In this document: positions 31,642-51,222 of the stretch, in pieces
How positions within the stretch are numbered: the first letter of the stretch is position 1
Layout: each line of letters starts with the position of its first letter
Assembly: GCF_021202945.1 (NCBI RefSeq)
Contig: NZ_JAJOYR010000001.1
Span: 372,001 to 436,000, forward strand
Direction of reading: 5' to 3'
Length of the DNA stretch: 64,000 nucleotides
From: Stenotrophomonas sp. SY1
Lineage (GTDB): Bacteria > Pseudomonadota > Gammaproteobacteria > Xanthomonadales > Xanthomonadaceae
Program-made: the position numbers and the translations under genes
Notes under the pieces: model-generated
Databases searched by the model: none
Told to the model about the DNA's origin: nothing
Seen by the model: only the letters and a program-made list of their open reading frames with translations

Positions 31642-31653
31642 AGCGATGCTCGC

Positions 31654-32268: not shown

Positions 32269-32303
32269 CTCTACCTCAACGCACGTCTACAACACTGTTC
32301 CGG

Positions 32304-33580: not shown

Positions 33581-33844
33581 TCAGCTCTCGGGCTTGTTCA
33601 GGGCTGCGGTCATCGCCGCGGCGTCTTCGCGCGACAGGAACAGGTATTCCAGCTCGGCACCGCCGAATTTGTCTTCCAGCTCGTGCAGGCGCACCGGGTG
33701 GCTGCCGAAGCGGTAGTGCATGTTGCCGTTGTCGGCATTCTCGATGGCATACACGCCAAAGGAGGGGGGATTGGTCAGGGTGCCTTCCAGCTTGACGGAT
33801 GAAGGGTCGATGGCGCGCTGGATGAGGTCTTCTAGGTCGATCAT
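33581..33844 (-). CDS. Hypothetical small acidic protein
   Basis: A protein of 87 residues, soluble, with no signal peptide: MIDLEDLIQRAIDP, then FGVYAIENAD and HELEDKFGGAELEYLFLSRED. Its clean codon use and separation from neighbours (95 bp before hmp) support a real gene. No family recognised. Confidence 0.7.
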   Translation of the reverse strand: MIDLEDLIQRAIDPSSVKLEGTLTNPPSFGVYAIENADNGNMHYRFGSHPVRLHELEDKFGGAELEYLFLSREDAAAMTAALNKPES

Positions 33845-35392: not shown

Positions 35393-35524
35393 CGATGGGG
35401 TTCTGGTCACGAAAGAGGGCGACACCTTACCGCGTCCGCCCGCCATCGTGTCTGTCCCGTTGGTTGGGGCCGGGTAGGATGAGCGCTCCGGCGCGGATGT
35501 GCGCCTGCAGCAAGGAATGGACGC

Positions 35525-36268: not shown

Positions 36269-36319
36269 GGGGGCTTTGGTTTTGGTTTTGGTTTGCGCTT
36301 GCGCTTGGCTCTGATCTTG

Positions 36320-36435
36320 CCCCCTCTCCCGTTTACGGGAGAGGGTTGGGGTGAGGGTAAGTGGTCAAGCAGCAGCCAAGGCAACAGCAAGTGCATGCCC
36401 TCACCCCTACCCCTCTCCCGTAAACGGGAGAGGGG
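36320..36435. repeat. Inverted pair of CCCTCTCCCGTTTACGGGAGAGGG repeats
   Basis: A perfect hairpin (CCCTCTCCCG-TTTA-CGGGAGAGGG) near 36322-36345 and a mirrored copy near 36411-36434 flank a 65-bp spacer. They lie between convergent genes. Confidence 0.75.
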
Positions 36436-36438
36436 ATG

Positions 36439-36514
36439 AGCAACAGCTCAAGAGCAACAGCTCAAGAGCAACAGCTCAAGAGCAACAGCTCAAGAGCAAC
36501 AGCTCAAGAGCAAC
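36439..36514. repeat. Perfect 14-bp tandem repeat, five and a half copies
   Basis: AGCAACAGCTCAAG is repeated without change at 36439, 36453, 36467, 36481 and 36495, and begins a sixth copy at 36509. It is a perfect minisatellite and a likely site of copy-number variation between strains. It ends 31 bp before the stop codon of the leftward amidase gene. Confidence 0.9.
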
Positions 36515-36544
36515 GGTCCAGGCACCACAATCTGAAACTGCCGC

Positions 36545-37687
36545 TTACTTCCAGCGCGACTTGCCGCGGATGTAACGCGCCGCATCCTCCAGCGAAGTCG
36601 GCAGGTATTCCGACCACAGGTTCGGTGGGTAGGCGTTCTGGTAGGTGTCATAGATGTCGCGAAACAGGTCCATGTGTACGACCGGCTGGCGCTTGCGGGC
36701 GCGCAGGTCGGCGATCGGTACGCGGCCCAGCACCAGCGTTTCTTCCTTGCTCTGCGCCTCGGCGATGGCCTTGCCGGCCGGGTCGTACAGGGCGGTGCCG
36801 CCTGAACCCGGATCATCGAAGTACGGGCCGTTGTCCGGCGAGATCGAGTTGTTGACGATCGAGGAGTAGACGCCGTTGTACATGGCACAAGCGGCGATAT
36901 CCATTTCCGAGAAGCCGCCCGAAGCGGTGCGCAGGAACACCTCCGCACCCTTGAACGCCATCGCGCGGAACAGCTCCGGCTCGCGCTGGGTCGAGCTGGT
37001 GCAGATGTTGCCCAGCGGGGTGCGGGTGACCGGCACCACCGCGTCGCGGCCGTACATTTCCACGTAGCGGTCGAGCACGTCGTAAGTAGTCGTGGTGAAC
37101 AGCTCGAAGTCCGGGAACGCACCCTTCAGGTTGCGGGCCTTCCAGTGCTTGTCCACGATCTCGCCCTTGTCGTTCATGATCGTGGTGATCGACAGCACGT
37201 GGCCCGGCCAGTCCGGGTCGGTGGCGTAGGCACCGAACACGATCCAGGTGCCGTACTGGCGCGCCTTCTGCGCGATGGCCTCGGTTTCGGCGCCGGGAAT
37301 GGTGATGGCGAACTTGAGGATTTCCTCGCGCGTCCACTTGCGCCAACCCGTCAGCGGGAATTCGTGGAACTGCAGCAGGTCGGGCTTGGCGTGGTAGTGC
37401 GCCTTGTCGATCAGTTCCAGCATGTGCGCCAGGTTGCGCCGGGTGCCGGCCTTCCATTCGCTGGCGTCGAAGCTGTGCACGCGTGACTGCACCAGCCCCA
37501 GTGTCCACGCCGGCTTGGCCAGTTCAACGGTGGCGTAGGTGCCATCGGTGCGTTCGTTCAATGCGTCAGGGCCTTTGCCCATGGCCGCCTGTGCGGGCGC
37601 CGGGGTGCCAAGCAGGGCGGGACCGACCGCGCCGAGTGCGGCCAGGCCGGCGGCGCTGCCGAGGAAATGTCTGCGGGTGTTGCTCAT
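36545..37687 (-). CDS. Tat-exported carbon-nitrogen hydrolase (aliphatic-amidase/nitrilase superfamily)
   Basis: A protein of 380 residues. A twin-arginine signal (NTRRHFLGSAAGLAALG) ends near QAA. The nitrilase-fold triad is visible: E109 in LLQFHEFPL, K183 in KHWKARN and C229 in GNICTSST. The stretch after the cysteine (FRAMAFKGAEVFLRTASGG) most resembles aliphatic amidases. It should hydrolyse an amide, carbamoyl or nitrile group in the periplasm, unusual for this mostly cytoplasmic family. It is the last gene of the leftward arm of the cluster that starts at 40 kb. GAGG precedes the ATG. Confidence 0.85.
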   Translation of the reverse strand: MSNTRRHFLGSAAGLAALGAVGPALLGTPAPAQAAMGKGPDALNERTDGTYATVELAKPAWTLGLVQSRVHSFDASEWKAGTRRNLAHMLELIDKAHYHAKPDLLQFHEFPLTGWRKWTREEILKFAITIPGAETEAIAQKARQYGTWIVFGAYATDPDWPGHVLSITTIMNDKGEIVDKHWKARNLKGAFPDFELFTTTTYDVLDRYVEMYGRDAVVPVTRTPLGNICTSSTQREPELFRAMAFKGAEVFLRTASGGFSEMDIAACAMYNGVYSSIVNNSISPDNGPYFDDPGSGGTALYDPAGKAIAEAQSKEETLVLGRVPIADLRARKRQPVVHMDLFRDIYDTYQNAYPPNLWSEYLPTSLEDAARYIRGKSRWK

Positions 37688-37883
37688 TGCGTACCTCGGT
37701 GGTTGATTGCCTGGATCAGGTTGGTTGCGGTTGCTGCTTGTCCCTTCTCCAGCGCAACGGTGCTCAGTTGGCTGCGAACCAAGGGTTCGCGAGCAAACCG
37801 CATCGCCCCGCAGGCGGAAGAGGGGCTTCACAGCTGCAACCGCTGGCTGCAAGGAGTGCTTCACTGCTGCACTACCGCAACAA

Positions 37884-37909
37884 ACTCGGGGCGCCATGGC
37901 GCCCCGAGT
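37884..37909 (-). terminator. Strong hairpin between the DUF3598-like and amidase genes
   Basis: A perfect 13-bp palindromic stem, ACTCGGGGCGCCA/TGGCGCCCCGAGT. Read leftward it is followed by TTGTTG. It probably terminates or attenuates the upstream part of the leftward arm, so the amidase may have its own promoter in 37688-37883. Confidence 0.7.
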
Positions 37910-37928
37910 CGTCGTTCTGCTGCTGCAA

Positions 37929-38435
37929 TCAGATCGCGTCGCCGTTGAAGCTCTCGCCCTTGATCTTCTGCCAGTCGCGGCTGACGAACTTCTCGTCGAT
38001 CAGGGTGCGCTGCACCAGCACGCCATGCTTGTACCAATGCCAGATGCGGTTGCGCATCTGCCCGTCGTCGGAGAGCTGGATCATCTCGTACAGCTCCAGG
38101 CCTTCCTCGCCCTTGCGCTTCCAGTACAGCATCACGGTGCGGTGGTAATCATCCAGCGGTACTTCGGCAGCCCAGCCGTAGATCAGCTCGTTGTCGAAGA
38201 TGACACGGCCAAATTCGTAGCGGGTCGGGAAGTCGCGTACTTCCACCTTGCCGTCGGCCCAGCTGTAGTGGTTGGTCTGGTGGTACGGCACGTTCTCATC
38301 GCTGGGGAAGCGGCAGATCAGGCGCGACTTGTGCTCGTCGATCTTGTTGCCTTCGGCGTCGTAGTAGCGGTATACGCCGTCCCAGACGCCTTCGTGGCGG
38401 GCCAGCAGCGGCAGGTGCAGTTGCATGTTCGGCAT
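37929..38435 (-). CDS. DUF3598-like lipocalin-fold protein
   Basis: A protein of 168 residues, soluble, with no signal peptide. The pattern ARHEGVWDGVYRYYDAEGN at the start, then HQTNHYSWADGKVE and MLYWKRKGEEGLELYEMIQL, fits the DUF3598/calycin-type beta-barrels that often hold hydrophobic ligands. AAGGGA lies upstream of the ATG. It is part of the leftward arm with the methyltransferase; a ligand-binding or isomerising role is inferred. Confidence 0.7.
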   Translation of the reverse strand: MPNMQLHLPLLARHEGVWDGVYRYYDAEGNKIDEHKSRLICRFPSDENVPYHQTNHYSWADGKVEVRDFPTRYEFGRVIFDNELIYGWAAEVPLDDYHRTVMLYWKRKGEEGLELYEMIQLSDDGQMRNRIWHWYKHGVLVQRTLIDEKFVSRDWQKIKGESFNGDAI

Positions 38436-38485
38436 TGCGGTTTCCCTTGTGGTCGTGTTGATGTCATCAGTTGAGGCGGCATGCC

Positions 38486-38848
38486 TCATTCCTTGCGAAG
38501 TGCGTCCATCACTTCTTCCATCGGCACGTCCATAGCACCGCTTTCCAACGCTTCGGTTTCCTGCTGCACGATGCGCAGCACCCGCGCGATGTATTCCTTC
38601 ATCCACAGCGTGCGCTGTGCTTCGGCCTCTCGGTCCGGCCGGAACTGGTCCAGTTCCTCGCGGCTGAGCAGGCCCTTGCTTTCGATCAGGCGTTCCAGCG
38701 CGTCCAGGCGTTGATGGGTCACCGCGTTTTCCATCGCGATGGCCATGGCGATGGAGAGCACGCGCTCCACGTCCGGGTCCTTGAAGAAGTACGGACGCTT
38801 GCCACGGGCGCGGCTTCCGGCCAGGGCAATGGGGTCGATGCTGCTCAT
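38486..38848 (-). CDS. 120-residue hypothetical protein coupled to the methyltransferase
   Basis: A helical, charged protein (KRPYFFKDPDVERVLSIAMA, then LIESKGLLSREELDQFRPD) of 120 residues. Its ATG overlaps the methyltransferase stop as ATGA, so the two are translationally coupled and probably act together. The RLIESKGLLSREELD segment looks like the N-terminal part of nitrile hydratase-type or subunit-assembly proteins only in a very general way. I assign no function. Confidence 0.7.
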   Translation of the reverse strand: MSSIDPIALAGSRARGKRPYFFKDPDVERVLSIAMAIAMENAVTHQRLDALERLIESKGLLSREELDQFRPDREAEAQRTLWMKEYIARVLRIVQQETEALESGAMDVPMEEVMDALRKE

Positions 38849-40032
38849 GCTTTCCACGCTCCAAACATGGTCCACAGCGCCGCACGGCCGTGGTCTTCTC
38901 CGCTCTCGCTGGCCACCGGGAAGATGTCCCGGTCCACCACGCCGCGTACCTTGGTTTCGAAATAGCGGTCGGCATCAAAGCCGGCCGCAGCCATCATCTG
39001 GCGCAGGTCGTATTCGTGCATCACGCTCCAGAACGGCTCGTTGTTGTTGTACGCATCCCAGTCACGGATGAACTGTTCGTACGGGTCCATGCCGTGGTAC
39101 TGCGGCTGCTCCAGGTGCGCGGTGAGGCCACCCGGCGCGAGCAGGCGGTTGATCTCGCGCAGCTTGCGCGGCATCGCCGTGGACGAGCTCTCGTGCCAGA
39201 ACATGGCCGTGGTGATCAGGTCGAAGTGGCCATCCGGGTACTCCAGCGCTTCGCCGTTGGCCTGCTGGAAGGCGATGTTGTTCACGCCAAGTGCGCGGGC
39301 ACGGGCGTGCGCATAGCGCAGCATCGGTGCGGCCACGTCGATGGCGATCACTTCCGCATCGGGGAATGCCTGCGCCAGCGGCACGATGTTGTGGCCGACG
39401 GTGCAGCCGATATCCAGGATGCGGCGGGGTTTGAACTGGGGGTGTTGTTCCTTCAGCCATTGCGCCAGCGCCTGGCCGCCACCGTCGTTGTAACGGCCGA
39501 GCATGCCGCCGGTGGTGGCGAAGATGCCGCAGTCGTAGTTGGTCGCCGCCGACACGTCATCGGCCAGCAGTTCGGTGTGATAGCCGCCGGGCATGCAGTG
39601 GATGTCCACCGCGCTGGAGTAGCGCGGCACCTTGACCGAGGCATCCAGGCGCAGGCCATCGTCGCCTGCATTGAGTGCGCGGGTCTTTTCGATCAGCGCA
39701 TCGACCTGCTTTAGCACCAGCCCGCGACCGGCCTGCTGACGCATCTCCATGCTGCTGCGGCGCAGGGCGCTCCAGGTCTGGTAGATGCCGTCGGCCGCCA
39801 TGGCCTTGCGCACTTCATGCCGGGTTTCCGGGGCGCGGCCCTTTTCCTTCTCGAACGCCGGCTTCACCCGGCGCTCGTAGGCCACCTTGACCTTGGGGCT
39901 GAGCTGGGTGGCCAGGTAGCCGTTGAGGTTGGCCAGGAAGTCGAAGCGTGCGGTGTCGTCGTGCGTGCTTTCGGGAAAGACCGCGTGGCGGCCGACGTGC
40001 TGCCAACTAGGCGGCAGAGGGTGCTGGCTCAT
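38845..40032 (-). CDS. SAM-dependent methyltransferase (class I)
   Basis: A protein of 395 residues. An N-terminal helical region of about 190 residues has no family I recognise. It is followed by a Rossmann-type methyltransferase domain with motif I ILDIGCTVGHNIVPLAQ, the acidic motif II EVIAIDVAAPMLRYA, and FDLITTAMFWHE with LREINRLLAPGG. The N-terminal region may be a substrate-specific cap. It is the first gene of the leftward arm, divergent from the DUF1838-like gene; GGAG precedes the ATG. Acceptor unknown. Confidence 0.87.
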   Translation of the reverse strand: MSQHPLPPSWQHVGRHAVFPESTHDDTARFDFLANLNGYLATQLSPKVKVAYERRVKPAFEKEKGRAPETRHEVRKAMAADGIYQTWSALRRSSMEMRQQAGRGLVLKQVDALIEKTRALNAGDDGLRLDASVKVPRYSSAVDIHCMPGGYHTELLADDVSAATNYDCGIFATTGGMLGRYNDGGGQALAQWLKEQHPQFKPRRILDIGCTVGHNIVPLAQAFPDAEVIAIDVAAPMLRYAHARARALGVNNIAFQQANGEALEYPDGHFDLITTAMFWHESSSTAMPRKLREINRLLAPGGLTAHLEQPQYHGMDPYEQFIRDWDAYNNNEPFWSVMHEYDLRQMMAAAGFDADRYFETKVRGVVDRDIFPVASESGEDHGRAALWTMFGAWKA

Positions 40033-40455
40033 GGCGACTCCGGGCTCGGGGGTTAGGTTCTAAAGTTATATCTATATGTCATGTTGATCCGGACATGGTC
40101 AAGTGCCCCGATCAGACCTGTCTGTTGCTGCGACCGAAGCGGCCTGCGGTGTCATGGCGCCGACCCGAGCCTCTCAAATGTCCGGACAGCATGCTAGTGC
40201 TGCTTTCACATCCTGCGCAGCGAAATTTTTGTTGCGAAGCAGCATGTTGCGCATTGCGAGCGACGCATCCCGGGCACTGGATTTCACGCGGCCAGTGCGG
40301 CTGCGGGGTGCCGGATCCAGGTTCTATGAATGATTGGACATTCATGTACTAATGATATAGCTATATGTCATCTTCGCCGGGCCGGCAGCCATGTCGGTGG
40401 CGCATCGGGAAGGGGAAGCAGCAGCTTTCCAGGCCCATACAAACAGGGGGTTGTC
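40033..40455. promoter_or_regulatory. Divergent control region of the 36.5-50.8 kb cluster
   Basis: This 423-bp non-coding region is AT-richer than its surroundings at both ends. A 16-bp direct repeat, TATA(T/G)CTATATGTCAT, occurs at 40067-40082 and 40356-40371, one near each divergent start. GGACAT boxes sit next to each repeat (40091-40096 and 40336-40341), and a perfect TGTCCGGACA palindrome lies at 40179-40188. This layout suits one regulator controlling both arms. No regulator gene is encoded in the cluster. Confidence 0.55.
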
Positions 40456-41316
40456 GTGATCCGAATGTCATCGCTTTTACTGATTGCCGCAATTGCACTT
40501 TCGCCACAGGCAAACGCGCTGGATTTGCAGTCCGAACAGGGCAGCGTCGAAGCGATGGTCAAGCTGCGCTGCTCGCTGGACCCCAAGCAGGAAGAACTGC
40601 TGTGGTGGGCCGGCACGTTGTTCGCGCAGGAGCCGGGCAAGAAAGCCGCCCCGGTATTGGGCTTTGAGGGCTACAACATCTGCCGCGCCGAGAAGCAGGC
40701 CGACGGCGTGTGGCGCCTGTACACGCGTGAGCTGACGTTCTACCGCGACCTGAAGACCGGCAAGATCATCGACAGCTGGGACAACCCGCTCTCCGGCGAG
40801 CGCAACGAAGTCGTGCAGGTGGCCAACGATCCGGTCAACACCGTGATCAATGCACCGGGCCGTCCGCTGCACCTGCCGTGGGTGGAAGCCGGCGATCAGG
40901 TGATGCTGACCCTCAACATCCCGCTGGCCTATCCCAATCCGCTGCAGCCGGCCGAATTCCCGGCCGAATCCACCGGCCCGACCTACATGGGCTCGGAACA
41001 TTTCATGTTCTTCGCACCGCGCGCAGATCTGGAAAACCCGGCGCTCAAAAGCGTGCCGGTCACCTACGGCTGGACCCGCATCGGGCCGTGGCTGCCCTGG
41101 ATGAAGCTGGGCACCCGCCCGGGCAACCTGCTGTACGTGGCGCAAGGCAACAAGCGCGCCTCGGTCAGCGAACTGCCGGCCGACATCCAGGAACTGGTGC
41201 GTACCCGTTACCCGGAGTACGCCCGCGCACCTGAAACCTGGGTGCAACCCAACGTCACCAGCTGGAGCTACTACAAGCAGCTCAAGCAGGGCGCTGCGGA
41301 AAAACAGCAGGACTGA
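40456..41316 (+). CDS. Exported DUF1838-like protein
   Basis: A protein of 286 residues. It starts with a GTG (GGGGG upstream); an ATG at 40465 is the alternative. A signal peptide (MSSLLLIAAIALSPQANA) precedes a mature domain with YNICRAEKQADGVWRLYTRE, DSWDNPLSGE and SEHFMFFAPRADL, matching what I recall of DUF1838 proteins. Expected in the periplasm. First gene of the rightward arm, 90 bp before the TonB receptor. Function of the family unknown. Confidence 0.75.
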   Translation: MIRMSSLLLIAAIALSPQANALDLQSEQGSVEAMVKLRCSLDPKQEELLWWAGTLFAQEPGKKAAPVLGFEGYNICRAEKQADGVWRLYTRELTFYRDLKTGKIIDSWDNPLSGERNEVVQVANDPVNTVINAPGRPLHLPWVEAGDQVMLTLNIPLAYPNPLQPAEFPAESTGPTYMGSEHFMFFAPRADLENPALKSVPVTYGWTRIGPWLPWMKLGTRPGNLLYVAQGNKRASVSELPADIQELVRTRYPEYARAPETWVQPNVTSWSYYKQLKQGAAEKQQD

Positions 41317-41406
41317 AGTACGGAAACACAGGACGGACCCCTCCCCCAAACGACGGCGCATCCATCCTCACATCTGTTCCGATCACACTTTCAAGTCGGG
41401 AATTTC

Positions 41407-43842
41407 ATGAAGAACATCAAGCCAGACCTGCTGTGCTCCGCCATCGCCATGGCGCTGCTGTTGTGCACGGGCAACGCCGCCGCACAGGACGCGGCCGCAG
41501 CGAGCGCAACGCCGGCAGCCAGCGACGAAACCGTATACAGCCTGGACCAGATCACCGTCACCGCGCGTGGCGTGGCCGAGCCGCTGCAGCAGATGCCGCT
41601 GCCGATCACCGCCATGTCCGAGCAGACCATCGAGAAGAAGGGCCTGGTCGATATCCGTGACATCGCCAACCTGACCCCGAGCTTCTCGTTCAAGTCCGGC
41701 TATGGCCGTGGCTTCGACCGCCCGGTGATCCGTGGCATGTCCAACATCCAGGGCGAGGCCAACGCCTCATTCTTCATCGACGGCATCTATGTCGAAGGTG
41801 ACGTCTCCAGCTACGGCCTGGAGAACATCCAGCGCGTGGAAGTGATCCGTGGCCCCCAGTCGGCAGCGTTCGGCCGCCGCACCTTCTCCGGCGCGATCAA
41901 CTTCATCACCAAGCGTCCGGGCAGCGACCGCGGTGGCAAGATCCGATTGGGCGCGGGCAATTACGGCCAGGAGGAGATGGGCCTGTTCTACTCCGGTGGC
42001 AACGAAGACGGCTCGTTCGGCTACGACTTCAGCCTCAACAAGCGCGGCAATGACGGCGTGTTCTTCAACCAGGCTTCCGGTGACAAGGACCTGGGCGGCA
42101 ATGAAACCACCAGCGTGATGGCTGCCGTGGCCTGGTCGCCCATCGATCAGCTCAACATCACCGCGCGGGTGATGCAGCAGAAGAGCCGCGATGAACATTT
42201 CCCGATTGCCCGCCTGGGCAGCGAGAACCTGAACTGCTACCTGCCCGAGTACACCGGTGCCAAGTATTTCGGCCTGTATCCGGTGCTGGATTCGCGCCGT
42301 CGCGGCTACTACTGCGGTGACCTGAAGGCACCGTCCGAGTACGCCATCAATACCAAGGAATTCGTGGCCGCCGGTTACTTCCCGGGCCGCAAGACCGACC
42401 TGCTGCGTACCAGCCTGGTGCTGGATTACCTGTTCGACAACGGTTGGAACTTCACTTCCACCTCGGCCTACAACGACAGCGAAACCTATTCGGCCAGCGA
42501 CCAGGACTACAGCGCCATCCGCGGTTACGGCGGTGCGTTCGAAAGCTTCGCCAACAGCGGAATCAAGAACTGGTCGCAGGACTTCCGCCTGAGCAGCGAC
42601 CAGAGCCTGCCGGTGTCGGGCATGGTCGGTGCGTACTACTACCAGCAGCAGGCGCAGCCGGGCTGGGGCGGCGACCTCACCGGCTTCACCATCGGCGGCA
42701 ACAAGGTGGTCACCACCATCCCCACCGACCCGGATGACAAGACCACCAACAAGGCCATCTACGGCCTGATCAACTGGCACATCACCGACAAGTGGACCAC
42801 CTCGCTGGAAGGCCGCTATGCGTGGGATGAGATCAGCAAGGGCGGCGTGGACACCCGCGTGCTGGGCACCACCACCTACACCCAGGCCTATGCGCTGAGC
42901 GAGACGTTCAAGAGCTTCACCCCGCGCTGGACGCTGAGCTACCAGGCCGCCGAGAACGTGAACCTGTACGGCCTGGTGTCCAAGGGCAACAAGCCCGGTG
43001 GCTTCAACACCGACGTGTACCGCGCCGACTTCCTGGAAGCCGAGCGTGACCTGCTGATCGCCCGTGGCCTTGAAACCTACGAGGAAGAAGAGGCCTGGAA
43101 CTACGAGCTGGGCATCAAGAGCGACTGGCTGGACGGCACCCTGCGCCTGAACGCCAACATCTACCAGATCGACTGGACCAACCAGCAGCTGACCGAAACC
43201 GGCCCGGTGATGCGCAAGAACGGGACCCTGTTCGCGACCAGCTACACCACCAACGTGGGCGAGTCGCGCATCCGCGGTTTCGAACTGGAAGGCCAGTGGG
43301 CATTCGCCCACGGTTGGGTGGCGTCGCTGGCGTACTCGTACACCGATGCGGAAATCCTGCACTTCCTCAGCCAGGACCAGGCCGATCTGTTCTCCGATGC
43401 CAAGGCGCCGACCCTGGCCGACCCGGCAGCCGATGCCGCCGGCTACACGCTGCCGCGCGTGCCCAAGAACAAGGCCACGCTGGGCCTGATGTACGACGGC
43501 GCGCTGGGCAATGGTTGGGAGTACACGCTCAACATGGACACCACCTACGAAGGCCGTCGCTACGTGCAGGTGGACAACCTGGCGAGCCTGGCACCGTCCA
43601 CCCGCACCAACTTCCGTTTCAGCCTGCGTCCGACCGAGCAGTGGCAGGTGTCGGCGTACGTGAACAACGCCTTCAACGACCGCACCCCTGAAGACGCACA
43701 GCGCACCATCAATCCGGACGCCTACATCGCGATTCCGGCGGTGCCGCCGTTGACCGGCCTGGCGGTGAGCAACCTGCGTGACTTTGGCGTCACGCCGTCG
43801 CTGCCGCGCATGTATGGCGTGGAAGTCAGCTACAAGTTCTAA
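41407..43842 (+). CDS. TonB-dependent outer-membrane receptor
   Basis: A protein of 811 residues. Signal peptide (LLCTGNAAAQDA), TonB-box-like TVYSLDQITVTARG, then a plug domain with RPVIRGMSNIQGEANASFFI and VEVIRGPQSAAFGRRTF, then a long beta-barrel ending in the outer-membrane signature (VEVSYKF). No Fur box is seen upstream, so the ligand is probably not a siderophore. With the downstream catabolic genes it more likely imports the pathway substrate. Followed by two hairpins at 43856-43882 and 43920-43946, which may reduce downstream expression. Confidence 0.92.
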   Translation: MKNIKPDLLCSAIAMALLLCTGNAAAQDAAAASATPAASDETVYSLDQITVTARGVAEPLQQMPLPITAMSEQTIEKKGLVDIRDIANLTPSFSFKSGYGRGFDRPVIRGMSNIQGEANASFFIDGIYVEGDVSSYGLENIQRVEVIRGPQSAAFGRRTFSGAINFITKRPGSDRGGKIRLGAGNYGQEEMGLFYSGGNEDGSFGYDFSLNKRGNDGVFFNQASGDKDLGGNETTSVMAAVAWSPIDQLNITARVMQQKSRDEHFPIARLGSENLNCYLPEYTGAKYFGLYPVLDSRRRGYYCGDLKAPSEYAINTKEFVAAGYFPGRKTDLLRTSLVLDYLFDNGWNFTSTSAYNDSETYSASDQDYSAIRGYGGAFESFANSGIKNWSQDFRLSSDQSLPVSGMVGAYYYQQQAQPGWGGDLTGFTIGGNKVVTTIPTDPDDKTTNKAIYGLINWHITDKWTTSLEGRYAWDEISKGGVDTRVLGTTTYTQAYALSETFKSFTPRWTLSYQAAENVNLYGLVSKGNKPGGFNTDVYRADFLEAERDLLIARGLETYEEEEAWNYELGIKSDWLDGTLRLNANIYQIDWTNQQLTETGPVMRKNGTLFATSYTTNVGESRIRGFELEGQWAFAHGWVASLAYSYTDAEILHFLSQDQADLFSDAKAPTLADPAADAAGYTLPRVPKNKATLGLMYDGALGNGWEYTLNMDTTYEGRRYVQVDNLASLAPSTRTNFRFSLRPTEQWQVSAYVNNAFNDRTPEDAQRTINPDAYIAIPAVPPLTGLAVSNLRDFGVTPSLPRMYGVEVSYKF

Positions 43843-43855
43843 GGAAAAACGTGGA

Positions 43856-43946
43856 CCGGAACGGCGCGCTGCGGCGTTCCGGTTCGCGGCGGACGAGGCT
43901 GACGCAGGTGGTTTCGGAGCGTCATTCCCCCAGTGAGGGAATGACG
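43856..43946 (+). terminator. Two hairpins after the TonB receptor (possible attenuators)
   Basis: The stem CCGGAACG/CGTTCCGG (43856-43882) is followed by the 10-bp stem CGTCATTCCC/GGGAATGACG with a 7-nt loop (43920-43946). Neither has a clear T-tract. They may stabilise the receptor mRNA or partly terminate before the amine oxidase. Confidence 0.5.
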
Positions 43947-44003
43947 ACATTCAGAACAACGGCAACAGAAATGCCCTTTGCAGGGCAGTGAACGGACACA
44001 AGC

Positions 44004-45404
44004 ATGCAACGACGCCATTTCATCCAAGGACTTTCCGGCATGGCCGCGCTGTCGCTGGTTCCCGGCGTGGTGCGTGCGGGCGTGCCCGCCAGTGACGTGA
44101 TCGTGGTTGGCGCCGGCCTGGCCGGTCTGGCCGCTGCACACGCGCTGGAAGCGGCGGGCGCCAAGGTCACCGTGCTGGAAGCCAACCCGCGCGTGGGTGG
44201 CCGCCTGCAGACCGTGGAGCGCAACGGCCTGCGCTTTGAAATCGGCGGCGTGGAAGTAGGCACCGGCTACGCGCGCGTGCATGCCCACGCCCAGCGCGTG
44301 GGTGTCGGCATCGTGCCGCCGTCGGCCGCCCTGCCCACCGCTGCCGGCCTGGGGCTGGTGCTGGGCGATGCGCTGGTACCGGCACCGCAATGGGGGCAAA
44401 GCCCGCTCAATACGCTGCAGGGCCGCGAACATGGCCTGCTGCCGCCGATGCTGCTGTCCACCGCGATCGGTGAACTGGGCCTGCCGGCGGTGGACAGCTG
44501 GCGCGACCCGGCCAATCTCAATCTCGATATCCCGCTGTCCGAACTGATCGCCGGCAAGGGCTGGTCAGCGCAGGCGTTGCAGTGGATGGATATCGGCAAC
44601 AGTTTTTCCTCGCTGCAGACCATCAGCGCGCTGGACGCATTGCGCCGCGATGCGCTGCGGCGGTTCGGCTCACGCGGCACCGGTTGGGTGCAGGGCGGCA
44701 GCCAGGCATTGCCGGAAGGCATGGCCGCCTCGCTGGCGCAGCCGCCGCTGCTGGGCGCGCAGGTGGTGCGGGTGGAATCCAGCGGCCGTGGCGTGCAGGT
44801 CCGCTGCGCCGATGGTCGCCGCTTCCGCGCCGCGCACCTGGTGCTGGCCCTGCCCAGCGGCCCGCTCAGTCGCATCGCCATCGATCCGGCACCGCCGGCC
44901 GAACAGCGCGCCGTCTGGTCGGCGCGTCGTTCCAACGCGGTCACCACCGTTCACCTGCATCCCACTCGCAAGTTCTGGGAAGAGGATGGCCAGCCGCTGT
45001 CGTTGTGGGGGGATGGCGCGTTGCAGCGCGTGTTCGCGGTGCCAGGCGGGGACGGGGAGATCAACCGCTTGATTGTCTGGCTCAACGGCGCCAGGGCGCA
45101 GCAGGCCGACCAGCTCGACCGCAACGCCCGCTTTGCCTGGGTCATCGATGCCATGGAGCGCCTGCGCCCGGCATCCAAGGGCGCGCTGCAGCCGCTGGAA
45201 ACCCGCAGCTGGGGCAATGATCCGCTGGCCGACGGTGCCTTTTCGGAAATTGCGCCGGGCCGGTTCGCGCAGACCCTGCGCTGGAACAACACCCCGTTCG
45301 GGCGGATTCACTTCGCCGGTGAGCAGACCGAACTGCATGTGCCGGGCATGGAAGCGGCCGTCAGCTCGGGCGAGCGTGCGGCTGCAGCAATTCTTTCGGC
45401 CTGA
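44004..45404 (+). CDS. Tat-exported flavin amine oxidase
   Basis: A protein of 466 residues. A twin-arginine signal (QRRHFIQGLSGMAALSLVPG) is followed at once by the FAD dinucleotide fold DVIVVGAGLAGLAAAHALE and the EANPRVGGR motif of the monoamine-oxidase family. The C-terminal FAD contact reads IHFAGEQTELHVPGMEAAVSSG. It should oxidise an amine (or a related C-H bond) outside the cytoplasm after export in folded, FAD-loaded form. No DUF or enzyme fusion. The acyl-CoA dehydrogenase follows after 56 bp. Confidence 0.88.
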   Translation: MQRRHFIQGLSGMAALSLVPGVVRAGVPASDVIVVGAGLAGLAAAHALEAAGAKVTVLEANPRVGGRLQTVERNGLRFEIGGVEVGTGYARVHAHAQRVGVGIVPPSAALPTAAGLGLVLGDALVPAPQWGQSPLNTLQGREHGLLPPMLLSTAIGELGLPAVDSWRDPANLNLDIPLSELIAGKGWSAQALQWMDIGNSFSSLQTISALDALRRDALRRFGSRGTGWVQGGSQALPEGMAASLAQPPLLGAQVVRVESSGRGVQVRCADGRRFRAAHLVLALPSGPLSRIAIDPAPPAEQRAVWSARRSNAVTTVHLHPTRKFWEEDGQPLSLWGDGALQRVFAVPGGDGEINRLIVWLNGARAQQADQLDRNARFAWVIDAMERLRPASKGALQPLETRSWGNDPLADGAFSEIAPGRFAQTLRWNNTPFGRIHFAGEQTELHVPGMEAAVSSGERAAAAILSA

Positions 45405-45460
45405 TTGAACTACCTTATCCCCTACCTTCCCGGGCGCGGACGCGCCTTCCAGAGACAGTA

Positions 45461-46633
45461 ATGAGCCTGAAGACACTGAACCCCTACGATTTGTTCGACG
45501 TGCGTTCGCTGCTGAGCGAGGAAGAACGCGCTGTACAGGATTCCGTCGCCCGTTTCACCGATGAACGCGTGCTGCCGATCATCGGCGATTGCTTCGACCA
45601 GGGCCGCTTCCCGACCGAGCTGATCCCCGAGATCGCCGACATGGGCCTGCTGGGCTGCTCGCTGCCGGAACAGTACGGCGGCGCCGGCCTGAACGGTGTC
45701 AGCTACGGCCTGATCTGCCAGGAGCTGGAGCGCGGCGATTCGGGTATCCGCAGCTTCGTCTCGGTGCAGAGCTCGCTGTGCATGTACCCCATCTATGCCT
45801 ACGGTTCGGAAGAGCAGCGCATGCGCTGGCTGCCGGACATGGCACGCGGCAAGGTCATAGGTTGTTTTGGCCTGACCGAAGCACACGGTGGTTCCGATCC
45901 GGCCGCGATGAAGACCCGCGCGGTGAAGGACGGTGGTGACTGGGTCATCAACGGTTCCAAGATGTGGATCACCAACGGCTCGGTGGCCGACATCGCCATC
46001 GTCTGGGCCAACACCGATGAAGGCGTACAGGGCTTCGTCATCGAGAAGGGCACCCCGGGTTTCACCACCCAGGAAATCAAGCACAAGATGAGCCTGCGTG
46101 CCTCGGTCACCGGCGCACTGTTCTTCGACAACGTGCGCGTGCCCGATGCCAACCGCCTGCCCAACGTGAAGGGCCTGAAGGGTCCGTTGGGCTGCCTGAC
46201 CCAGGCCCGCTACGGCATCACCTGGGGCCCCATCGGCGCGGCCATCGCCTGCCTGGACGAAGTGCTGGCTTACACCAAGGAACGCATCCTGTTCGGCCGC
46301 CCGGTCGCGGCCACGCAGAGCGCGCAGATCAAGATGGCCGACATGGCCCGCCGCATCACCGCCGGCCAGTTGCTGGTGTTGCAGCTCGGTCGCCTGAAGG
46401 ATGCCGGCGTGATGCAGCCGCAGCAGGTGTCGCTGGCCAAGTGGAACAACTGCCGCCTGGCCATCGATATCGCGCGCGAATGCCGTGACCTGCTCGGCGG
46501 TGCCGGCATCACCACCGAGCATGGCGCGATCCGTCACGCGCTGAACCTGGAATCGGTCATCACCTATGAAGGCACCGAGACCGTGCACCAGTTGGTGATC
46601 GGCCGCGAGCTGACCGGCATCAACGCGTTCTGA
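45461..46633 (+). CDS. Acyl-CoA dehydrogenase (glutaryl-CoA dehydrogenase-like)
   Basis: A protein of 390 residues. Landmarks are CFGLTEAHGGSDPAAMKT (flavin and substrate binding), SKMWITNGSVADIAIVWA, and the catalytic base E370 in YEGTETVHQLVIGRELTG, the glutaryl-CoA dehydrogenase subgroup pattern. It oxidises an acyl-CoA to the enoyl-CoA, in this subgroup sometimes with decarboxylation. Cytoplasmic FAD enzyme. No CoA ligase or thiolase lies in the cluster, so its CoA substrate must be made elsewhere. Linked to the next gene by a 3-bp gap. Confidence 0.9.
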   Translation: MSLKTLNPYDLFDVRSLLSEEERAVQDSVARFTDERVLPIIGDCFDQGRFPTELIPEIADMGLLGCSLPEQYGGAGLNGVSYGLICQELERGDSGIRSFVSVQSSLCMYPIYAYGSEEQRMRWLPDMARGKVIGCFGLTEAHGGSDPAAMKTRAVKDGGDWVINGSKMWITNGSVADIAIVWANTDEGVQGFVIEKGTPGFTTQEIKHKMSLRASVTGALFFDNVRVPDANRLPNVKGLKGPLGCLTQARYGITWGPIGAAIACLDEVLAYTKERILFGRPVAATQSAQIKMADMARRITAGQLLVLQLGRLKDAGVMQPQQVSLAKWNNCRLAIDIARECRDLLGGAGITTEHGAIRHALNLESVITYEGTETVHQLVIGRELTGINAF

Positions 46634-46636
46634 TCG

Positions 46637-47653
46637 ATGGACGGCTTGCACACCACCATGCAGGCCGTCTGCCTGCGGCAGGTTCCGCAAGGGATGCCGC
46701 AGGAGCAGGATTTCGAACTGCTGCAACGGCCTACACCGGTAACCGGTGATGGCCAGTTGAAGGTGCGGGTGCAGTGGTTGTCGCTGGACCCGTTCCTGCG
46801 CGCGCAGCTGGGTGGCCGTTATGCGGTGCCGTGCCCGCCGCTGGGCAGCATCGTGCCGGGCTACGGCATCGGCACCGTGCTGGAAGACCGCAGTGGCCGC
46901 TTCGCCGTGGGCGAGGTGGTCAGCGGCATGACTGGCTGGGCCGAACACGCCGTGCTCGATGCGGGCAGCGTGTCGCGCGTGGATACCACGCAGGCGCCGC
47001 CCAGCACCGCGGTTGGTGTACTGGGCATTCCCGGGCTGACCGCATGGGCCGGCGTACGCCACATTCTTGAACCCCAGGCCGGTCAAACCATTCTTGTTTC
47101 GACCGCTGCCGGTGCCGTGGGCAGCGTGGTCGGGCAGCTGTGCAAGGCTGCCGGTTGCCGCGTGGTCGGCATTGCCGGCAGCGCCGAAAAATGCGCCATC
47201 GTCACCGATGAGTTCGGCTTCGATGCCTGCGTGAATTACCGCGCTGCCGACTTCCCGCAGGCGCTGCATGCAGCCTGCCCGGAGGGTATCGATGGTTACT
47301 TCGACAACGTCGGCGGCGCTGTGCTGGAAGCGGCGCTGTCACTGCTGCGCCTGCACGCCCGCGTGGTGCTGTGCGGCCTGAGTGATCAATACAACCGCGC
47401 CGAGCGTCCCGCCGGCCCCAACCTCGGACCGGTGATTGGCGCGCGTGCGCGCCTGCAGGGGCTGGTGGTGTACGACCACCTGCATGAATTCGAACGTTGC
47501 CGCAGCGAACTGGCCGCGATGATCGCCGCCGGCACCCTGCGTTATCGCGAACACATCCATGACGGCCTGGCCAGCGCGCCGGCCGGCTTCATCGGTCTGC
47601 TCAACGGCGACAACCTGGGCAAGGCGCTGGTACGGCTTCAAGGAAACGCATGA
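46637..47653 (+). CDS. NADP-dependent medium-chain reductase (CurA-like)
   Basis: A protein of 338 residues. Zinc-free MDR fold: LSLDPFLRAQLGG, VSGMTGWAEHAV, a nucleotide-binding loop STAAGAVGSVVGQLCKAAG, then GYFDNVGGAVLEAAL and GLVVYDHLHEFE. These motifs are typical of the CurA, leukotriene B4 dehydrogenase and 2-alkenal reductase group that reduces enone double bonds with NADPH. ATG 46637 is used; ATG 46658 is a possible later start. Its last 4 bp overlap the next gene. Confidence 0.88.
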   Translation: MDGLHTTMQAVCLRQVPQGMPQEQDFELLQRPTPVTGDGQLKVRVQWLSLDPFLRAQLGGRYAVPCPPLGSIVPGYGIGTVLEDRSGRFAVGEVVSGMTGWAEHAVLDAGSVSRVDTTQAPPSTAVGVLGIPGLTAWAGVRHILEPQAGQTILVSTAAGAVGSVVGQLCKAAGCRVVGIAGSAEKCAIVTDEFGFDACVNYRAADFPQALHAACPEGIDGYFDNVGGAVLEAALSLLRLHARVVLCGLSDQYNRAERPAGPNLGPVIGARARLQGLVVYDHLHEFERCRSELAAMIAAGTLRYREHIHDGLASAPAGFIGLLNGDNLGKALVRLQGNA

Positions 47654-49227
47654 CTTCGATCCAACGGCGCTTCGTGTCCGTCAACGGACGCCAGGTGCAT
47701 TACCGCATCGCCGGCACCGGCCCGGCCCTGCTGCTGATACACCAGTCGCCGCAGAACTCGCGCATGTGGCACACGATGATGCAGCGCTTCGCCGACCGCT
47801 ACACGGTGATCGCGCCGGATACGCCGGGTTTTGGCTATTCCGATCCGCTGCCCGGCAACCCGATGACGATTGCCGATTTCGGCACGGCCACGCTGGCGTT
47901 CTGCCAGGCCATCGGCCTGCAACGCTTCGCCGTGTTCGGCATGCACACCGGCGGGCTGATCGCCACCTGGCTGGCCTGGGCGAATCCGCAACGTGTTGCT
48001 GCGCTGGTGGTGGATGGCTATGCCGCTTTCACCCCGGAAGAAAGCGCGCTGTATGGCGACGCCTACCTGCCGCCGTTCGTGCCGCAATGGGACGGTTCGC
48101 ACCTGCGTTGGCTGTGGTCGCGCATGCGCGAGCAGAAGTATTACTTCCCGTGGTACGACGGTCGCGCTGAAGCGGCAATGCGGATCGCGCCGCAGACCAC
48201 CGAAAGCACGCGCGAGACGGTGATGGACGTGCTCGACGTGGGGGACACCTACCGCGCCGGCTATGCCGCCGCGTTCCGTCACAACGATCATCATTGGGTC
48301 AGCGAACTGAAGATGCCGTCGTGGCTGGTGTTCCGCCACGGCGACCCGCTGCTGGCGCATATGCCGCGCCTGCTTGATCTGCCGGGCAACGTGCAGTTGA
48401 TCGAAGAGCCCGATGGCATCGCGGCGATGCACGCGAAGATGGATGCGTGGCTGGCGCAGGTGCTCTCCGTCGAGCCTGTGTTTGAAGCAAGGGTGACTGA
48501 AGCATCCAGCGCAGGCTGGCAACGCCGCATCATCGCCACCGCTGCCGGTGACATGGCGGTATGGGAGTGTGCCGGCGAAGGTCCGCTGCATCTGGTGCTG
48601 CACGCGCCGGGCACGCGCCCGCTGTCGCCGGCGCAGCTGCCGGTCAGCGAAGGCGCCTGGCTGCTGCCGGATCTGCCCGGCCATGGCGCCTCCTGCGAAA
48701 CCGACAGCGAACTCGGTGCCGATGTCGTCGTGCAGGCGCTGCTCGACGCCCTGCGCGGCAACGACACGCAACCACTGCTGATCGAAGCACACGGCGGCGC
48801 AGCCGGTTACGTGCCGGCGCTGGTTGATGCATTGGGCGCACGCGTGCAGAACGTACTGCTGCATTCGCCATGGCTGCTCGACGCCGCCGAACAAGCGGTG
48901 CTGCTGGACAACCTGCCGACCACCGTCATCGATCGCGCCGGTGGCTATCTGTGCGATGTGTGGCAGTGGGAGCGTGAGCGCCACCTGTTGTGGCCGTGGA
49001 TGGCGCCCAGCGCCGACGCACGCCGTCGCGTCGATGCACCGTCGCCGGCATGCGTGCATGCCAACGTGGTCGAACTGCTGCGGCTTGGCCCGCGCCTGCA
49101 CACGCTGCTGCGTGATGCCACCGCACCGGATCTGGCTGCGCGGCTGCGTGCCTTGCCGATGCCATTGCAGGTCAACGCCGATTCCGAATCCGACTTCCAG
49201 GGCCGCGCCGCCGCGCTGTCCGCCTGA
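47650..49227 (+). CDS. Fused double alpha/beta-hydrolase protein with His at both nucleophile positions
   Basis: A protein of 525 residues. The N-half (about 1-280) has the strand motifs ALLLIHQSPQNSRMW and VIAPDTPGFGYSDP and an elbow reading FGMHTGG with H99 where the family has Ser, Asp or Cys. The C-half (about 290-525) repeats the plan: LVLHAPGTRP, LLPDLPGHGAS and an elbow LIEAHGGAAG with H381. Neither half has the GxSxG serine, so classical esterase chemistry is doubtful. A lyase, cofactor-free or purely binding role is possible. It overlaps the CurA-like gene (ATGA) and has AAGGA upstream. Confidence 0.8.
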   Translation: MTSIQRRFVSVNGRQVHYRIAGTGPALLLIHQSPQNSRMWHTMMQRFADRYTVIAPDTPGFGYSDPLPGNPMTIADFGTATLAFCQAIGLQRFAVFGMHTGGLIATWLAWANPQRVAALVVDGYAAFTPEESALYGDAYLPPFVPQWDGSHLRWLWSRMREQKYYFPWYDGRAEAAMRIAPQTTESTRETVMDVLDVGDTYRAGYAAAFRHNDHHWVSELKMPSWLVFRHGDPLLAHMPRLLDLPGNVQLIEEPDGIAAMHAKMDAWLAQVLSVEPVFEARVTEASSAGWQRRIIATAAGDMAVWECAGEGPLHLVLHAPGTRPLSPAQLPVSEGAWLLPDLPGHGASCETDSELGADVVVQALLDALRGNDTQPLLIEAHGGAAGYVPALVDALGARVQNVLLHSPWLLDAAEQAVLLDNLPTTVIDRAGGYLCDVWQWERERHLLWPWMAPSADARRRVDAPSPACVHANVVELLRLGPRLHTLLRDATAPDLAARLRALPMPLQVNADSESDFQGRAAALSA

Positions 49228-49242
49228 TCCCGAAGGACCCCC

Positions 49243-50805
49243 ATGAGCAACGCCACCGCAACCGCGCAAGATGTCATCGCCCAGCTGAAGCTCAGTTGGG
49301 GCAAGGACATCGTTACCGATGCCAACGAGCTGGAATACTTCGGCACCGACGTCTATTCGCAGGGCCAGCCGCTGCTGGCGGTACTGCGCCCCGGCAACGC
49401 CCAACAGCTCGCCGACGCGGTCAAGCAGCTCACCGATGCCGGCATCGCGGTGGTGCCGCGCGGTGGTGGCATGAGCTACACCGGGGGTTACACCGCCGCG
49501 CGCAGCCCGAGCGTGCTGGTCGATACTGGTTCGCTCGACAAGATCGTCGAGATCAATCTGGAAGACGCCTATGTCGTTGTCGAAGCCGGCGTCACCTGGC
49601 GTGCGCTGAAGGAAGCACTGGATGCCAAGGGCGTGCGCACGCCGTACTTCGGGCCGATGTCCGGCTCGCATGCGACTGTCGGCGGTGGCATGTCTCAGAG
49701 CGCCATCTTCCACGGCTCGGCGCGCTACGGCTGCTCGGCCGACGTGGTGCTGGGGTTGCAGGTGGTCACCGCCAATGGCGACATCCTCACCACGGGTTCC
49801 GCGGCTGCGGCGAACACGTCGCCGTTTTTCCGTTGGTACGGACCTGACCTGACCGGCCTGTTCCTCGGCGATTGCGGCCTGCTCGGCATCAAGACCCGCA
49901 TCGTGCTCAAGCTGATCCCCAAGCATGCGCACATCGATTACCTGTCCTGGCAGTTCGGCACCCCCGAGGGCCTGTTCGGCGCATTGAGCGCGCTGGCCCG
50001 CGCCGGCCTGGCCAGCGAGACGGCCGCGTTCGATCCGGCGCTGACCAGCATCCGCATGCGTCGTGCCAGCCTGTCCAGCGACGTCAAGGCGCTGACCAAT
50101 GTCATCAGAAAGGGCGGGCTGATCTCCGGCCTGAAGCTGGCGGTGAAGGGCCGCGACATCGTCGACCAGCAGCAGTTCTCGCTGCACATCACGCTGGAAG
50201 GCGACAGCGCCGCCGAAGTAGCCGACCGTGTGTCGCGGGCGCGCAAGCTGGTGGAGGGTTTTGGCCAGAGTGTGGAACCGTCGATACCGAAGATGATGGC
50301 GGCCAATCCGTTCGCCGCCTGGAACTCGATGCTCGGCCCGCAGGGCGAGCGTTGGGCGCCGGTGCATGCCATCGTTCCGCATTCGAAGTCGGTGGCCGTG
50401 TTCAATGCGCTGCAGGAGCTGTTCGCCCGCGAGCAGGAAACCATGGACCGGCACGGGATCTTCATCGGCACGCTGATGTCCAGCGTCGGCGCACAGGCGG
50501 CGGTGATCGAGCCGTGCATCTACTGGCCGGACAGCCACAACGCCTTCCATGTACGCACCGTGGACGCCGACCACCGCGAGCGCATCGGCTGCCCGGGCGA
50601 GCACCTTGAGGCCCGCGCCGCAGCTGACACGCTCAAGCGCCAGATCGCCGATGTCATGCGCGCACATGGCGCAGCCAATCTGCAGCTGGGCAAGTTCTAC
50701 GACTACCGCGCCGGCCGCGACCCGGCCGCGCTGGCGCTGCTGGATGCCATCAAGGCCCAGCTCGACCCCAAGGGCTTGATGAACCCGGGCGTCCTGTCGC
50801 GCTGA
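49243..50805 (+). CDS. FAD-linked oxidase (VAO/PCMH family, glycolate/D-lactate oxidase-like)
   Basis: A protein of 520 residues. The PCMH-type FAD domain (about 40-220) contains VVPRGGGMSYTGGYT, VEAGVTWRALKEAL and SGSHATVGGGMSQSAIFHGS. The C-terminal substrate domain ends in the conserved KAQLDPKGLMNPGVLS. It would oxidise an alcohol, hydroxy acid or phenol with FAD. No signal peptide, so cytoplasmic. AAGGA lies before the ATG, 15 bp after the previous stop. Last gene of the rightward arm; a hairpin repeat follows. Confidence 0.9.
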   Translation: MSNATATAQDVIAQLKLSWGKDIVTDANELEYFGTDVYSQGQPLLAVLRPGNAQQLADAVKQLTDAGIAVVPRGGGMSYTGGYTAARSPSVLVDTGSLDKIVEINLEDAYVVVEAGVTWRALKEALDAKGVRTPYFGPMSGSHATVGGGMSQSAIFHGSARYGCSADVVLGLQVVTANGDILTTGSAAAANTSPFFRWYGPDLTGLFLGDCGLLGIKTRIVLKLIPKHAHIDYLSWQFGTPEGLFGALSALARAGLASETAAFDPALTSIRMRRASLSSDVKALTNVIRKGGLISGLKLAVKGRDIVDQQQFSLHITLEGDSAAEVADRVSRARKLVEGFGQSVEPSIPKMMAANPFAAWNSMLGPQGERWAPVHAIVPHSKSVAVFNALQELFAREQETMDRHGIFIGTLMSSVGAQAAVIEPCIYWPDSHNAFHVRTVDADHRERIGCPGEHLEARAAADTLKRQIADVMRAHGAANLQLGKFYDYRAGRDPAALALLDAIKAQLDPKGLMNPGVLSR

Positions 50806-50813
50806 GCGATCAA

Positions 50814-50844
50814 GGCCCCTCTCCCGCCTACGGGGTGAGGGGCT
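50814..50844. repeat. Single CCCCTCTCCCG...GGGGTGAGGGG hairpin
   Basis: A member of the intergenic hairpin family lies 9 bp after the oxidase stop and could serve as its terminator. In the remaining 50845-51222 I see GC-rich, GGCC-rich sequence but no gene, and no clear promoter except the immediate upstream region of the kinase. Confidence 0.6.
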
Positions 50845-51222
50845 GTTTGTGAATCAGCGCTTCGCGGCCCATCGAACGCCCTGGCACAAAGGCCGGAGCG
50901 CGGTGCAGGGGTGGGATGAGGGCGGGCTTGGCTGGGTTCAGGGCCCGGCCGGAGCGTCCTGGGCCTTGCGCGCCGCCGCCGCCCTTCACATGACGTACCC
51001 AACGGCCAAGCCCAACCCCGGGCCGTTCTGCCGTGCGCCGTTTCCGGCTCCCAGTGGCCAAATAGCCAGCGCAACGCACCGCTGAATGCTTCTGCCTGTT
51101 TTCATTTCGCGCCATCGGCAACAATATGCGCCCTTGATCCCCTCCTATCGGGCCACGTTCGACGCTGTTCGTTCGAGCGCCCTTCCTGTGCCGAGGCATC
51201 GGCCACCACGCACCGAGGAACT

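Follow-up and report, generated by a model that had tools for sequence, protein, structure and literature searches.

A divergent gene cluster of Stenotrophomonas sp. SY1 as the possible uptake and front end of a two-locus pathway for a nitrogen heterocycle

We analysed a divergent eleven-gene cluster at positions 36545-50805 of a 64,000-nucleotide stretch (hereafter the window) of contig NZ_JAJOYR010000001.1 of Stenotrophomonas sp. SY1, and compared it with related loci (L numbers) and genomes (G numbers). Our reading, which stands about evenly balanced, is that the cluster encodes uptake and the front end of a catabolic pathway, probably acquired, with its back end on contig C18 of the same genome. 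The window and C18 probably form a single two-locus pathway, and its passage through a cyclic imide or amide appears fairly likely; an alkylmaleate-type diacid may or may not be among the intermediates, with similar weight on either side, and a tetrapyrrole origin of the substrate seems unlikely.

In the proposed route, a bulky hydrophobic nitrogen heterocycle would enter via the TonB receptor and be oxidised by the exported flavin oxidase. The flavin adenine dinucleotide (FAD) oxidase, the reductase and a methyltransferase (MT) with its small partner protein (p129) would also act on the heterocycle, which would be cut to alkylated five-membered cyclic imides, that is, substituted maleimides. 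PuuE-like proteins (PSDA) and an isochorismatase-type, half-amidase-like enzyme (ISOCH) would open the imides to alkylmaleates, and these could reach central metabolites either by hydration (LeuCD/DmdAB-like) and subsequent C-C cleavage, or by coenzyme A (CoA) transfer, dehydrogenation, hydration and RipC-like cleavage. The original prediction, made from the window alone, had described a TonB-fed catabolic cluster for a hydrophobic amide or amine; its genes are indeed conserved together, and a nitrogen ring that is opened by way of a cyclic imide or amide is now better supported than the proposed substrate. It had also called the combination unfamiliar, and we found no matching characterised pathway in the open-access literature, searched mostly by title.

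A second locus on contig C18

The C18 locus was found by searching the genome with two proteins that adjoin the cluster in Lysobacter A03. Between about 136 and 174 kb it holds LeuD/LeuC-like genes, a TonB receptor, a second double hydrolase-fold protein, GntR-like and nitrilase-like genes, ALDH and FAD oxidase genes, an adjacent PSDA pair, MFS and SDR genes, a third PSDA gene, CitE/RipC-like and MaoC/RipB-like genes, an acyl-CoA dehydrogenase and two CoA-transferases. An ISOCH gene (C18:164674-165318) lies just upstream of the PSDA pair. The CoA-transferases, assigned from sequence, would provide the CoA activation that had been expected to lie outside the cluster. Additionally, in other genera (L026, L102/L103) a set of CoA-transferase, acyl-CoA dehydrogenase, MaoC, CitE and PSDA genes adjoins the MT cluster, as it does in part in L024.

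MT is rare, occurring in 3 of 149 family-sample genomes (one of them a 30% match, in G063) and in 3 of 398 phylum-sample genomes. When the 30% match is excluded, MT (at least 79%) and the C18 PuuE-like protein (at least 81%) are each found only in G000 and G133 among the family genomes (p = 9e-5); under loose matching MT occurs in 3 genomes and the PuuE-like protein in 22, with an overlap of 2 (p = 0.02, two MT genomes counted). At phylum level ISOCH is present in 8 of 398 genomes, which include all three MT genomes (p = 5e-6). These p values ignore relatedness and take the genome samples of the paired counts as identical, with which the listed genomes agree. One ISOCH copy (L182, G431:C16:233790-234452) has a TAA inside the matched stretch.

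Proposed ring opening and diacid chemistry

A cyclic imide or amide is likely to be opened in the pathway, because three unrelated kinds of cyclic-amide hydrolase recur in MT/p129 loci. PuuE-like proteins occur in many proteobacterial loci, HyuA together with HyuB in L017, L058 and L106 (one or the other in L021, L089 and L101), and an AllB/dihydropyrimidinase-like amidohydrolase, under its model cut-offs, in Nostoc L052, with a relative in G063 (L108). Those PSDA proteins that were tested have their top NCBIfam and PDB matches in the PuuE allantoinase/cyclic imide hydrolase family; unlike PuuE allantoinase, PSDA scores 232.4 against a cut-off of 424.6 and often occurs as two adjacent copies. 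PMC9304392 describes the PuuE family as kin to cyclic imidases.

The downstream chemistry is suggested by genomes that lack MT. In G197 and G536 an ISOCH-PSDA-PSDA module stands with LeuC, LeuD, a gene of the phosphoenolpyruvate (PEP)-mutase/isocitrate-lyase family, GntR and, by eye, TRAP-transporter-like open reading frames (ORFs), and in G387 with HMGL, GntR and a TonB receptor. These contexts fit a predicted sequence from imide to half-amide, alkylmaleate, alkylmalate and smaller acids. Dimethylmaleate hydratase and dimethylmalate lyase catalyse comparable steps in nicotinate fermentation. We infer a maleimide ring here, as opposed to a hydantoin or succinimide.

On C18, the small LeuCD/DmdAB-like subunit passes the LeuD/DmdB cut-off (163.9 versus 108.95) and the large subunit passes three aconitase/isopropylmalate isomerase subfamily cut-offs, which places it at subfamily level and does not specify a substrate; unlike known members, the pair sits within a ring-opening gene set. 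The C18 hydratase and lyase best match RipB/Ich and RipC and lie beside CoA-transferases, as in the itaconate degradation (Rip) module. They differ from that module in scoring below the equivalog cut-offs (249.7 of 340 and 218.3 of 375) and in being accompanied by additional acyl-CoA dehydrogenase, PuuE-like and ISOCH genes.

Alkylated maleates could also arise from a substituted pyridine or pyridine alkaloid by a Nic-like route, with a hydrolase-fold deformylase, an isochorismatase-type maleamate amidase and a maleate isomerase. Hydrolase-fold, isochorismatase and AMDase/EutA-type families, which we take to resemble NicD, NicF and NicE, all recur in the locus family. Such a route is nevertheless rather improbable: two or three PuuE-like proteins would be superfluous once a dioxygenase had opened the pyridine to an open-chain amide, and the hydrolase-fold family has His in place of the nucleophile. 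The hydrolase-fold, isochorismatase-type amidase and maleate-isomerase-like components of the nicotinate Nic pathway would all have counterparts in MT loci, of which the hydrolase-fold one has an altered nucleophile.

A hydantoin, imidazole or ureide-type ring (allantoin-, creatinine- or ergothioneine-like) would account for the kinship of the PuuE-like, AllB/hydantoin-5-propionate-amidohydrolase-like, HyuA/HyuB and isochorismatase-type families to enzymes that act on such rings. It would leave unexplained the LeuCD/DmdAB-like, RipB/RipC-like and CoA-transferase genes for branched diacids, as well as the use of a TonB receptor for such a small ligand, and we consider it similarly improbable as the nitrogen ring of this pathway.

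Altered enzymes and predicted structures

The functions 'amidase' and 'hydrolase' are doubtful here, because catalytic residues are altered or not conserved. The G-x-Nuc-x-G elbow is a motif of alpha/beta hydrolases, and no Ser, Asp or Cys nucleophile occupies it in the window's hydrolase-fold protein. His stands at the nucleophile position in all 22 sequences compared (the window and 21 relatives), three mis-clustered MFS rows having been left out, and a related family has it in 4 of 4. The nitrilase-fold protein of the window (nit) keeps E109, a Lys and C229, yet some relatives carry Ser, Ala or Tyr where the Cys should be. In F4, the nitrilase-like family that is commoner in MT loci, Ser replaces Cys and Arg replaces Lys, by a 37-sequence consensus and alignment to solved NIT2. 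The earlier suggestion of envelope C-N chemistry by this amidase is weakened accordingly.

These residues also bear on the substrate first proposed. In that view a hydrophobic plant amide, or a simple amine, would be taken up and broken down, with key envelope steps catalysed by the amidase and the amine oxidase. The amine-oxidase-family enzyme and the nitrilase-fold protein are both predicted to be exported, with what we take to be twin-arginine signals visible by eye in their sequences, and the window's own nit has an intact E, K and C. The substitutions in its relatives, the resident origin of the acyl-CoA dehydrogenase and the linked C18 module, which indicates a cyclic imide or amide and branched diacids, together make a plant amide or simple amine quite implausible.

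By fold and motif, as judged from alignment and model, MT belongs to the class I S-adenosylmethionine (SAM)-dependent methyltransferases: L206, D207, G209, G213 and D232 are invariant in 48 sequences, and the model, through its structure matches, combines the class I fold with a helical N-terminal part. The DUF1838 model is confident, and Foldseek gave low TM-scores only. With VIA-align it matched BFA1, Rv2717c, CpeS, DUF3598, nitrobindin, Ycf58 and THAP4 at Z 7.5-8.8, which is near background according to the tool. Calycin-fold barrels (nitrobindin, CpcS/CpeS bilin lyases, DUF3598) aligned at Z 7.5 to 8.3, but the outer-membrane proteases Pla and pOmpT score alike (Z 8.2 and 8.1), and a common fold would say nothing of function. 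By title, none of the papers listed for DUF1838 or DUF3598 concerns bacterial catabolism.

Conservation, probable co-regulation and probable acquisition of the cluster

Conserved synteny had been proposed as a check, and the genes are kept together in other Stenotrophomonas genomes and partly in other genera; the refutation envisaged for the prediction, which required a lack of both joint conservation and co-expression, therefore does not apply. The eleven-gene order is the same in L022, L023, L024 (last gene cut by the locus edge), L164 and L179, with L164 and L022 probably from the same genome. MT identity is 95% in Stenotrophomonas sp. Iso1 and 94% in S. terrae, strain DSM 18941 of which has this cluster too. 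In G133 (L102:4722-12805) the amine-oxidase/TonB-receptor pair is tandemly duplicated.

A 29-nt repeat with a palindromic core precedes each arm; the six relatives inspected also have it there, either once or twice. The two sites are the only ones in the 4.38 Mb genome at up to 3 mismatches to a pattern derived from one of them. Because this operator-like repeat is common to both arms and has no third genomic site, the arms are probably co-regulated by one regulator. The receptor had been described as lacking a Fur box, and no Fur-box-like site occurs in the window at up to 3 mismatches to a 19-bp consensus; by the same search an iron-regulated siderophore receptor locus under Fur control was rejected.

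The acyl-CoA dehydrogenase, previously read as a cluster-specific step, is better explained as a resident glutaryl-CoA dehydrogenase (gcdH) with extra genes on either side. Its best PDB matches are named glutaryl-CoA dehydrogenases, and the Arg and Glu expected of such enzymes are present (R97 and E370). The gene is present in 30 of 31 genus genomes, the window's included, and has no close second copy in its own genome (next match 35%), where a DNA query with 44000-46000 gave three short further matches only. We compared gcdH regions from 18 of the 29 other gcdH-bearing genus genomes, 4 of which ended early at contig ends. Of the 18 regions, 2 (L164, L179) have the cluster around gcdH, and it was not detected in the remaining 16. 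In G550 (L165) gcdH has the window's neighbours, the permease and RIO-kinase genes, and the homologous segments are 90 and 66 bases apart where the window has 9.93 kb and 4.59 kb. The empty junction is also seen in G558 (L177) next to the permease gene and in G567 (L166, on a short contig) next to the RIO-kinase gene.

Most simply, the extra genes were inserted to the left and right of the resident gcdH. Since gcdH stands without the ten flanking genes in close relatives, these genes were probably gained horizontally as a catabolic island. The GC content of the cluster shows no contrast with its flanks and lends no support to transfer, so we relied on comparison with empty sites. The relatives may alternatively have lost both arms. 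Additionally, gcdH accompanies the cluster in L026 (Lysobacter sp. A03) and L102 (G133), which would allow for a functional link or for recombination through gcdH.

A widespread family of MT/p129 loci

An MT alignment scan matched at least 597 stretches, at least 571 of them relatives, of which the best 80 were kept as loci (24 of them under 20 kb); rarer and more distant arrangements are therefore under-sampled. Two near-duplicates (L019, L104) were omitted from family clustering. The locus family spans Proteobacteria, Bacteroidota and Nostoc. A p129-type ORF directly follows 79 of the 93 MT genes in the 80 loci, overlapping in 45 by longest-ORF starts, which suggests that MT and p129 work together.

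Counted per 80 loci, homologues were found of p129 in 74, DUF3598 in 42, nitrilase-like proteins in 41, MFS in 40, PSDA in 29, the FAD oxidase in 28, DUF1838 in 27, two TonB receptor families in 26 and 15, the hydrolase-fold protein in 25, ISOCH and CoA-transferase in 24 each, acyl-CoA dehydrogenase in 20, LeuC-like and MaoC-like in 19 each, CitE-like in 18, LeuD-like in 17, HMGL in 12, amine oxidase and CurA in 10 each, and HapK in 9. PSDA or ISOCH is present in 30 loci, and a diacid gene (LeuC, LeuD, CitE or HMGL) in 31. In 18 control regions of 20 kb (20 were chosen, from the window's genome and from relatives of the same family, order, class or phylum, and 18 existed), 26 of 29 families were absent, and ALDH, CitE and SDR occurred once each; these controls are not matched by lineage to the loci, most of which are sphingomonad, and the MT loci themselves served to define the families, both of which lessen the force of the comparison for our reading.

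Gene content near MT differs widely between lineages, and the ISOCH module also occurs without MT, as a loose collection of mobile catabolic genes with no common substrate would predict; the shared eleven-gene order in Stenotrophomonas, the repeat common to both arms, the co-occurrence of MT and C18-type genes and control regions nearly empty of the locus families make such a collection highly improbable.

Plasmids pJE1 and pTomTYG65b (L017 and L019) have a 17.5-kb catabolic segment in common, at 96.4% identity. TomTYG65 is one of the isolates linked to tomatine-treated soil. A steroidal saponin link through this strain was considered and rejected; the main text of the strain's paper makes no mention of methyltransferase, TonB or hydantoinase. 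No literature was found on 'Sphingomonas sp. JE1'. Eight loci (L051, L063, L065-L067, L069, L070, L079) carry a second, divergent MT on the opposite strand, mostly with its own p129-like gene. Two further recurrent families, F8 and F17 (e.g. L067:720-1403, L100:5220-5981), are membrane-protein-like, and three members tried had no Pfam match even at E 10.

Points that weigh against the proposed two-locus imide pathway

Several observations tell against the reading of window and C18 as one imide-opening pathway. Neither PSDA nor ISOCH is present in 50 of the 80 loci. PSDA and Hyu genes occur together in G431 (L105, L106) and L089; the hydrolase kinds are partly alternatives and partly found together, and are not clean substitutes. 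Several of these ring-hydrolase families also act on hydantoins, ureides and pyrimidines, and the RipB-, RipC- and PuuE-like proteins all fall under curated cut-offs. Of the 8 genomes with ISOCH, 5 gave no MT match; the ring-opening module is thus also in use where MT is lacking. The operator-like repeat was not found in the C18 stretch, which leaves co-regulation of the two loci unsupported. The PEP-mutase/isocitrate-lyase-type gene of C18 passes the methylisocitrate lyase cut-off and may be an ordinary prpB. No known tetrapyrrole ring-opening gene was recognised.

Features of the window

All eleven ORFs lie in the divergent order first described (Table 1), and Pfam domain matches back the families named for MT, DUF3598, DUF1838, the receptor, the oxidases, the dehydrogenase and the reductase. 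The MT match is to Methyltransf_25; that of DUF3598_N is weak (23.7 bits, cut-off 22), and p129 has no Pfam match at E 0.01. The small coupled protein does overlap the MT gene, and is at most 129 aa long (120 aa had been given before). For the CurA-type reductase the top NCBIfam model is NADPH-dependent curcumin reductase (337.6 bits, under the cut-off of 440). The sequence favours starts at 37687 (nit), 38435 (DUF3598 protein) and 40465 (DUF1838 protein).

Table 1. Coordinates of the cluster and associated features in the window
Feature	Position	Strand	Remarks
nit, nitrilase-fold protein, predicted Tat-exported	36545..37687	-	E109, K180/K183, C229 present; Pfam CN_hydrolase
DUF3598_N protein	37929..38435	-	Recurs in locus family; homologue in 42/80 MT loci
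p129, small partner protein, gene overlapping MT gene	38486..38875	-	
MT, class I SAM methyltransferase with helical N-terminal part, locus-family marker	38845..40032	-	
Operator-like repeat before MT operon	40057..40085	+	
Operator-like repeat, palindromic core, before DUF1838 operon	40346..40374	+	
DUF1838 protein, signal-peptide-like start, predicted beta-barrel (model pLDDT 91.7)	40465..41316	+	
TonB-dependent receptor	41407..43842	+	Pfam Plug and TonB barrel
Flavin amine-oxidase-family enzyme, predicted Tat-exported	44004..45404	+	Pfam Amino_oxidase
gcdH, resident glutaryl-CoA dehydrogenase, by origin outside the island on the simplest reading	45461..46633	+	
CurA-type medium-chain reductase	46637..47653	+	Pfam ADH_N_2/ADH_zinc_N
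Double alpha/beta-hydrolase-fold protein, His (H99) at nucleophile position	47650..49227	+	Pfam Abhydrolase_1
FAD_binding_4 oxidase	49243..50805	+	Pfam
Left insertion relative to G550, G558	35442..45374		Includes uncharacterised ORF 35525-36268
Right insertion relative to G550, G567	46634..51223		

Immediately downstream of nit, a 14-nt unit forms a perfect tandem array of 5.5 copies (36438-36514). Further left, 30259-33586 has no aligned counterpart in the G550 and G558 regions compared and may be a further insertion or loss; it contains a flavohaemoglobin-like gene with globin and FAD/NAD domains (32304-33497). An adapter or assembly artefact near 32.3 kb was rejected, as an adapter string had no match.

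A possible tetrapyrrole origin and its implications

A bolder and unlikely extension of the imide pathway is that MT/p129 loci form a widespread mobile pathway that uses tetrapyrroles (chlorophyll derivatives, bilins, haem products) as a carbon and nitrogen source. Uptake would proceed through TonB receptors with calycin-type binding proteins (DUF1838, DUF3598); flavin-based ring breakage would yield substituted maleimides such as hematinic acid and methylvinylmaleimide; and imide opening would be followed by alkylmaleate catabolism. The proposal draws support from a C18-type back end that fits maleimides, from bilin lyases and nitrobindin among the DUF1838 model neighbours, with Z near background, and from HapK/RedY-type proteins in 9 of 80 loci, which are presumably linked to tripyrrole pigments.

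PMC8669743 regards maleimides as breakdown products of tetrapyrrole pigments, and reports single-pyrrole compounds from work on bacterial cultures with porphyrins. PMC6018153 states that bacterial ChuS can free hematinic acid from haem and that bacterial haem-opening enzymes are known, and PMC7318184 that mono- and dipyrrolic chlorophyll products are present in leaves. The parts read of these three papers name no gene set like the MT/p129 loci. The tetrapyrrole and phyllobilin literature found was plant, clinical and chemical, with further work on bacterial haem use, the change of sedimentary porphyrins by bacteria and cobalamin; among the papers listed, no title concerned a bacterial gene set for using small pyrrole fragments or a bacterial alkylmaleimide pathway.

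Our analysis ties scattered families, namely DUF1838, DUF3598, MT/p129 and the altered nitrilase- and hydrolase-fold proteins, to one recurrent context, and puts forward substituted maleimides as a testable class of intermediate. If the substrate were indeed a tetrapyrrole, these loci would supply genes for what becomes, in bacteria, of small pyrrole fragments derived from chlorophyll, haem and bile pigments.

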